Source: a bacterium HR17 (GTDB lineage Bacteria; Armatimonadota; Fervidibacteria; Fervidibacterales; Fervidibacteraceae). Taken from it: 52,231 nucleotides of DNA. The DNA lies in assembly GCA_002898575.1 (NCBI GenBank), contig BEHT01000024.1, forward strand, positions 1 to 52,231. Direction: 5' to 3'. Under the pieces are notes generated by a model. The model did not search any database, was not told the origin of the DNA, and saw only the letters and a list, made by a program, of their open reading frames with translations. Both the position numbers and the translations under genes were made by a program. Positions 46,029-47,154 of this stretch are shown in pieces. Each line of letters opens with the position of its first letter. Positions within the stretch are counted from its first letter, which is position 1.

Positions 46029-47027
46029 CTATCTGCGCTGCGCGATCACCTTGCGATAACGCTGCAAGGCGGCTTTCAACATCGCCCGATACGCTGCGGG
46101 TTCATCGCTGTCGCGCCAACGAACAGGTTGTAGACACTGGCGTCCGTCAGGCGATAACACGACGGTGCGGTTTTGAAAGGTGCGGAAGAACCAAAATGCG
46201 ACGGGGTGACGGTGCAGCGCTTCCCACGCCCGTCGCCACTCTGCCAACGCAGGGACATCAGGAACGGGTTGCTCCGTCACATTGACCCAAACGGGGATGA
46301 AATGCCGTTGCACCAACGCGATGACCTGTGCATCCGAGAGCGACCGCTCCCGCAAAAGCGTTCCGCCCACTCAGCAAGGCGCTTGCGGTTCGCCCCCTGC
46401 GACGAAAACGACCAGCAACGGTTTGCCCGTTCGGCGCGCTTCCCTTTGCGCCGCTGCAAAGTCGGTCCGCCACGCGATTTGCAACCATCGTTTGGGCGAT
46501 GGGCGCGCCGTGTAGCGCTGTATCGTCCCGCCTATCGCGAACCCACCCGCACAAGCGATAAACAAAGCGAACCCACTGGCGGTCAGCAACATCGCCGTCG
46601 TCATCGTCGGTGCAGGACGGCAAATCAAGCGCACCTTGGTGCGGGTCAAAACCCACAACGCCCAAAGGCAAAGGAGCGTTTGCCCGACACGCAATATGGG
46701 CAAATCGTTCAGCGCCAACAACACGAGGTTTGCCCCGATGCCCCAAATTTGCAACCCGATGGCGACTTTGCGGGCACCTTCCCGCCCCGTGAGCACCCCG
46801 ACGCCTGTTAGCCCGTTTGCTGTCGCCAACACCAAAAACAGCGTCCCCAACACAAGCAAAACGACATCGTTGGTCGTTTGCCCGAACGGCGCTGCTATGG
46901 CGTAGGCAGCGAACGCGAACATGCCGAGACTTAACTGCCACACTGCCGTCCAAAGCATTAACGCGCCGGCGATACGCACGCTCCGACAAGGGACTGCATC
47001 GTTCGTTGCCTCATGCACCATCGTCAC
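46029..47027 (-). CDS. Membrane protein with thioredoxin-like domain, probable selenoprotein (in-frame TGA)
   Basis: Read as one frame of 332 residues with a TGA at 46373-46371 (residue 219). Both sides are coding. Before the TGA are about five membrane helices and then WRTDFAAAQREARRTGKPLLVVFV and GEPQAPC. After it come LLRERSLSDAQVIALVQRHFIPVWVNV and the rest of a DUF255/thioredoxin-like fold. The TGA follows a Cys, giving a Cys-Sec pair where the redox site is expected. A hairpin with loop GGUC follows at SECIS distance. A start at the GTG 47027 fits the GGAGG eight bases upstream; ATGs at 47033 or 47021 are possible. Alternatives: a nonsense mutation, or a second gene starting at the GTG right after the TGA. 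Confidence 0.6.
46336..46352 (-). promoter_or_regulatory. Putative bacterial SECIS hairpin
   Basis: On the minus strand CGGGAGC and GCTCTCG enclose a GGTC loop, with seven pairs including one G-U wobble. The loop begins 25 bases after the TGA. Bacterial SECIS loops typically lie 16-37 bases downstream of the UGA and carry a G near the loop start. The E. coli fdhF loop is GGUCU. Confidence 0.5.
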
Positions 47028-47154
47028 AGTCATCACCTCCCTGCTTTCATCTACAACCCGCCCGCCTTTCGGTTGCGGCGCCAACATTTTTCAGGACAGC
47101 ATCGCTGCTACGCGAGGGAACGATACCACCGTTCATCCCGGAGGGGGCAAAACG

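Follow-up and report, generated by a model that had tools for sequence, protein, structure and literature searches.

A minus-strand gene with a single in-frame TGA

The window, by which we mean the whole stretch of 52,231 nucleotides analysed here, carries on its minus strand a reading frame that runs from a GTG at 47027 to a TAG at 46029-46031, and in which the sole in-frame stop is a TGA at 46371-46373. With this one TGA read through, the gene (46029..47027, minus strand) specifies 332 residues. The start was placed at GTG 47027 because a ribosome-binding site, GGAGG (47036-47040), sits 8 nt upstream of it; residue numbers for the protein (P0001) nevertheless run from an upstream ATG at 47087, and in this numbering the TGA, the proposed selenocysteine (Sec) codon, is residue 239. 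The codon immediately before it (46374..46376, minus strand) encodes Cys, the proposed resolving or selenenylsulfide partner. A preliminary description of the locus had reported a single TGA with an adjoining Cys in one frame and had expected an ordinary annotation to split the gene; both points were confirmed, on the minus strand, and a standard six-frame listing gives two ORFs. The gene is the only one on its strand here. It is flanked by ybeY and by a divergent gene which, judged by eye from the translations, resembles a spermidine-synthase-type membrane protein, with 127 bp between the GTG start and the likely ATG of this divergent neighbour (47155). None of the genes next to it was recognised as metal-related.

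The frame beyond the TGA

After the TGA the frame stays open over 113 codons, and its GC content by codon position (0.68/0.48/0.66) resembles that of the neighbouring genes. We compared this segment with a profile of homologues that was limited to the part after the Sec column and from which the query sequence had been left out. The in-frame translation scored 52 bits (E 9e-16), while the top score among 200 shuffled copies was 7.7 bits, and none of the other frames was among the matches listed. Pairwise tblastn with the post-TGA part alone was weaker (best E 6e-4), which is what distant relatives would lead one to expect. Together, the base composition, the open frame and the profile match agree with the earlier proposal that the gene is coding on both sides of the TGA.

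Domain architecture and fold

The N-terminal part is a DUF7144-like membrane domain of about four helices (46641..46979, minus strand), indicated by hydropathy and by a match to PF23636 that reached 26.8 bits on the protein and 29.2 bits in the genome scan, against a cut-off of 27. Hydropathy indicates about five membrane segments, of which the first four lie inside this domain and the fifth (46518..46607, minus strand; residues 161-190) would tether a thioredoxin-like (Trx) domain of the Thioredoxin_7/DsbD-gamma type (46032..46505, minus strand). The Pfam model PF13899 gave 18.3 bits, below its cut-off of 27. In an AlphaFold2 model of the Trx domain (pLDDT 86), the Sec is at position 46, after strand 31-36 and just before helix 47-56; the redox residue thus starts the helix that follows the first strand, as in Thioredoxin_7-type proteins. 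The top solved matches by profile and fold were 3f9u, DsbH-type proteins, the C-terminal domain of DsbD and AGR2, with moderate fold scores (best TM-score about 0.6); we take these proteins to represent the extracytoplasmic Trx class. Counting five helices and setting the basic loops TGREGARK and RTKVRLICR inside, we infer that the Trx domain probably faces outward. The DUF7144-Trx architecture was seen in none of the other genomes searched, including 291 of the phylum.

Selenocysteine machinery and the conserved Sec/Cys column

A search for selA, selB, selC and selD, which had been suggested as a check, found all four in the same genome: SelA (E 9e-149), a full-length SelB (410 bits over 580/581 positions), a tRNA-Sec (78 bits) whose anticodon is TCA, and SelD (385 bits). 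This SelD (L015, G000:C2:7112-8038) has an in-frame TGA of its own at GGUACK, a known type of Sec site in SelD, followed by a hairpin, GGUCC-GGC-GGACC, that begins 12 nt downstream. SelD is counted among the Sec families in a recent inventory (PMC13188914).

Matches to the protein were found in 29 other genomes among 150 relatives of the same phylum, many of them holding exactly one TGA, and a profile search of 291 genomes of the phylum added dozens of others in which a single TGA is the only stop. The homologues continue past the TGA, where the preliminary description had allowed that they might end before it. In an alignment of 39 sequences the Sec column is invariant in the sense that it holds TGA in this gene and 29 others and Cys in the remaining 9, which answers the earlier question of whether relatives with a Cys codon in place of the TGA exist. 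A direct Sec/Cys pair is provided by L050 (LCUTNARTLRA) and L032 (MPCANARTLRA). The same column is the first Cys of CxxC in classical Trx forms, for example L029 (WCGPC). The aligned TGA-bearing relatives have a Cys at -1 or -2 of the TGA; in some Cys homologues, L024 and L032 for instance, the site contains just one Cys. The TGA had been described as lying beside a Cys at the expected redox position; the position is indeed the nucleophile column of Trx with a Cys adjoining, but it is the Sec that replaces the first Cys, and the adjoining Cys is an extra one.

SelA is present in 16 of the 19 genomes with TGA-bearing homologues and in 59 of 132 others (Fisher p 0.001, a value that overstates independence, as the genomes are related by descent). 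Three genomes (G055, G070 and G128) carry TGA-bearing homologues without a clear SelA; all are fragmented assemblies, and these are probably gaps in metagenome-assembled genomes. Against 400 genomes of the phylum of G292 (reached by way of a record labelled Chloroflexi), P0001 found distant relatives only, nearly all of them TGA-bearing.

We found no close orthologue, so conservation had to be judged from relatives that share about 17-43% identity across the domain. The available genomes of the same genus, family and order, two of them incomplete, gave no match. The gene is missing next to ybeY in G001 and G003, and the corresponding stretch of G004 has no match, so that no syntenic orthologue is at hand for comparison; in G002 the contig ends too soon for a decision. 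A scan of the genome contigs with the single protein likewise gave no match. An alignment proved too diverse for patterns, and the scan was therefore made with a DNA motif that represents the sister GHPLGCTUNNG family and includes the TGA.

The hairpin downstream of the TGA

A putative bacterial SECIS (bSECIS) hairpin, CGGGAGC-GGUC-GCUCUCG, occupies 46335..46352 on the minus strand. Its stem pairs 46346-46352 with 46335-46341 (7 bp) around a GGUC loop at 46342-46345, starting 18 nt after the TGA with the loop 25 nt after it. The stem length, the loop and the distance fall within the published bSECIS constraints (PMC13188914). Rfam models gave no match in the window at the gathering threshold.

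Taken alone, this hairpin is at chance level and proves little. Stems of 7 bp without interruption, closed by a loop that contains a G and placed at the right distance, were present in 5.5% of in-frame windows from neighbouring genes; among codon shuffles the share was 17%. Energy-based tests of the hairpin alone gave a z near 0 in one case and 8% of codon shuffles in another. Having considered the hairpin as stand-alone proof, we rejected it on these results, such a stem arising by chance in 5-17% of comparable sequences. Its geometry is as first described and lies inside the bSECIS model, but it does not rise above chance by itself; the case for a selenoprotein is carried by the homologues.

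The nearest Sec relative, L049, has a comparable hairpin (GAGGGC-GGUC-GCCCUC), with the loop two nucleotides nearer to the TGA. The equivalent hairpin of the sister GHPLGCTUNNG family, analysed in 66 sequences, was 89% paired, versus 31-47% when slid, and it showed 71 compensatory double changes, versus 22 expected from shuffles and 3-22 when slid. The set was picked for a shared register and its members are related, so these numbers are supportive rather than exact.

Related Sec-containing families among the relatives

The GHPLGCTUNNG family, which is Trx-like and widespread, was found in at least 116 stretches. The in-frame TGA was read out in loci L099-L178, and further loci include L020, L021, L027, L037 and L051-L063, among others. 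Record labels assign its members to Planctomycetota, Verrucomicrobiota, Armatimonadota, Chloroflexi, Poribacteria, Latescibacteria and others, and the members scanned against NCBIfam scored over the cut-off of no model. Across loci L020-L241 (63 nt from the TGA), the family hairpin showed strong compensatory base changes, one position being paired in 98 of 99 sequences, as C-G in 47 and as G-C in 47. Members of one subfamily, which have VW downstream of the site, do not pair in this register and perhaps rely on a shifted one.

Other Trx-like forms were also encountered. Four loci (L033, L056, L064 and L065) represent a second Trx7 type with a UERU or CERU active site, resembling the Trx7/PDZ selenoproteins, and three of them have two in-frame TGA codons. 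L061 (G143:C166) is a Trx-like gene with an APMUGGC (UxxC) site and one TGA, and L025 (G111:C93) is a GCTUGNG copy with four TGA codons in frame, possibly decaying or frameshifted after the site.

Proposed function and alternative explanations

We consider it very probable that the gene encodes a selenoprotein. SelB and the Sec-tRNA(UCA) would decode the TGA at 46371-46373 as selenocysteine, the hairpin that lies 18-35 nt further downstream directing the insertion. The predicted product would have about five membrane helices, comprising the DUF7144-like domain and the tether, and a C-terminal Trx-fold domain that is probably extracytoplasmic. In this domain the Sec would stand in for the first, nucleophilic Cys of CxxC, where the active-site helix begins. 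There is no classical second Cys; the Cys beside the Sec (CU) would most likely form a selenenylsulfide during turnover. The protein would probably be a membrane-anchored thiol/selenol oxidoreductase, its predicted substrates being disulfides or oxidised thiols reduced on the outer side of the membrane. We regard such an outward-facing oxidoreductase function as likely, with somewhat less assurance than the selenoprotein assignment. What the sequence itself shows is the reading frame, the machinery, the homologue column and the fold; from these we infer the insertion of Sec, the topology, the chemistry, the substrate and the electron donor.

The function could also be a different one, that of a peroxidase-like or metal-handling Sec protein in which the neighbouring Cys plays no resolving role. 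Vicinal Cys-Sec pairs are listed for HgcA, SaoL and MbdU, which are metal- or mercury-related selenoproteins (PMC13188914), and the lone Cys at the site of L024 and L032 also fits this explanation. The neighbours by fold and profile (DsbD-gamma, DsbH and AGR2-type proteins), however, belong to the thiol oxidoreductase class, and nothing metal-related was recognised in the immediate neighbourhood; we hold a peroxidase or metal role to be rather unlikely.

It is far less probable that the TGA is a true stop, or else a recent nonsense mutation or a sequencing error, leaving a short membrane protein followed by a dead or separate ORF. The two ORFs of the six-frame listing, the chance-level hairpin and the lack of a close orthologue sharing the TGA would suit such a stop. 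Against it, distant homologues in many genomes have a TGA at the identical column with an open frame beyond, and the genome has the Sec machinery; moreover, a random error is unlikely to strike the very nucleophile column that other TGA genes share, and the truncated product would finish in the middle of a domain, at its active site. Decoding of the TGA by near-cognate suppression or by reassignment to Trp or Gly, codes that do exist in other bacteria, is scarcely credible here, since homologues lacking the TGA have Cys at the column, not Trp or Gly, and a dedicated tRNA-Sec(UCA), SelA, SelB and SelD are present.

Going beyond the selenoprotein assignment, we tentatively raise the possibility, which we would not yet favour, that extracytoplasmic Trx selenoproteins of the CU and GHPLGCTUNNG types form a large superfamily, as yet uncatalogued, in Armatimonadota, Planctomycetota, Verrucomicrobiota, Chloroflexota, Poribacteria and others, with this gene as its membrane-anchored branch. 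DUF7144 would then be a partner module carrying electrons through the membrane. The gene adds to the known selenoproteins a Trx-like one whose architecture is new and in whose site Cys and Sec stand side by side. As the curated selenoprotein models of NCBIfam release 20 matched neither this protein nor the scanned GHPLGCTUNNG members over their cut-offs, annotation pipelines probably cut such genes short at the active site. With the Sec/Cys pairs among the relatives, it becomes testable what advantage Sec brings in extracytoplasmic thiol chemistry.

Comparison with known systems

None of the curated selenoprotein models of NCBIfam release 20 that we tested was matched by the protein over its cut-off, and a 2026 inventory of 119 prokaryotic families contains no recognisable DUF7144 fusion or GHPLGCTUNNG family (PMC13188914). 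A text search for the GHPLGCTUNNG motif found nothing. That neither source contains these proteins does not prove them to be new.

The best NCBIfam match is the VPGUxxT family (NF041383, NF041382; hypothetical protein OS_HP5), with which the protein shares a Trx-like domain with Sec (residues 203-272, E 2e-6). The match to NF041383, at 27.5 bits against a cut-off of 275, covers only profile positions 4-68 of 287 and does not reach the family cut-off, and unlike that family our protein has the motif PCUVGGT and a membrane N-terminus. The Trx7/PDZ (seleno)protein family (NF041199) likewise has Sec at the Trx site of a Thioredoxin_7-type domain, but the match (18.5 bits against a cut-off of 300) is confined to residues 205-228, leaves the PDZ part unmatched and does not make the protein a member; its Cys and Sec are adjacent, whereas those of Trx7/PDZ form CxxU.

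With the GHPLGCTUNNG type the protein shares a homologous domain, the TGA at the same column and a downstream hairpin at a similar distance. That type, however, has CxU where this protein has CU, a longer C-terminal part and no DUF7144 match that we could see; with its motif CUVGG in place of CxUNNG, the protein lies outside the GHPLGCTUNNG clade and is not a member. In a tree it is a deep singleton near L049 and the CxxC forms; this tree has only modest support in places and several long branches. The C-terminal (gamma) domain of DsbD, DsbH and Bacteroides 3f9u share its fold and the extracytoplasmic Trx type, but have no Sec and only 10-19% identity to it; DsbD-gamma and DsbH are known to have a CxxC site. 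The preliminary description had called the gene a probable new selenoprotein. The Sec reading is supported and no curated model tested fits, yet selenoproteins of the Trx-like kind are already known in VPGUxxT and Trx7/PDZ.
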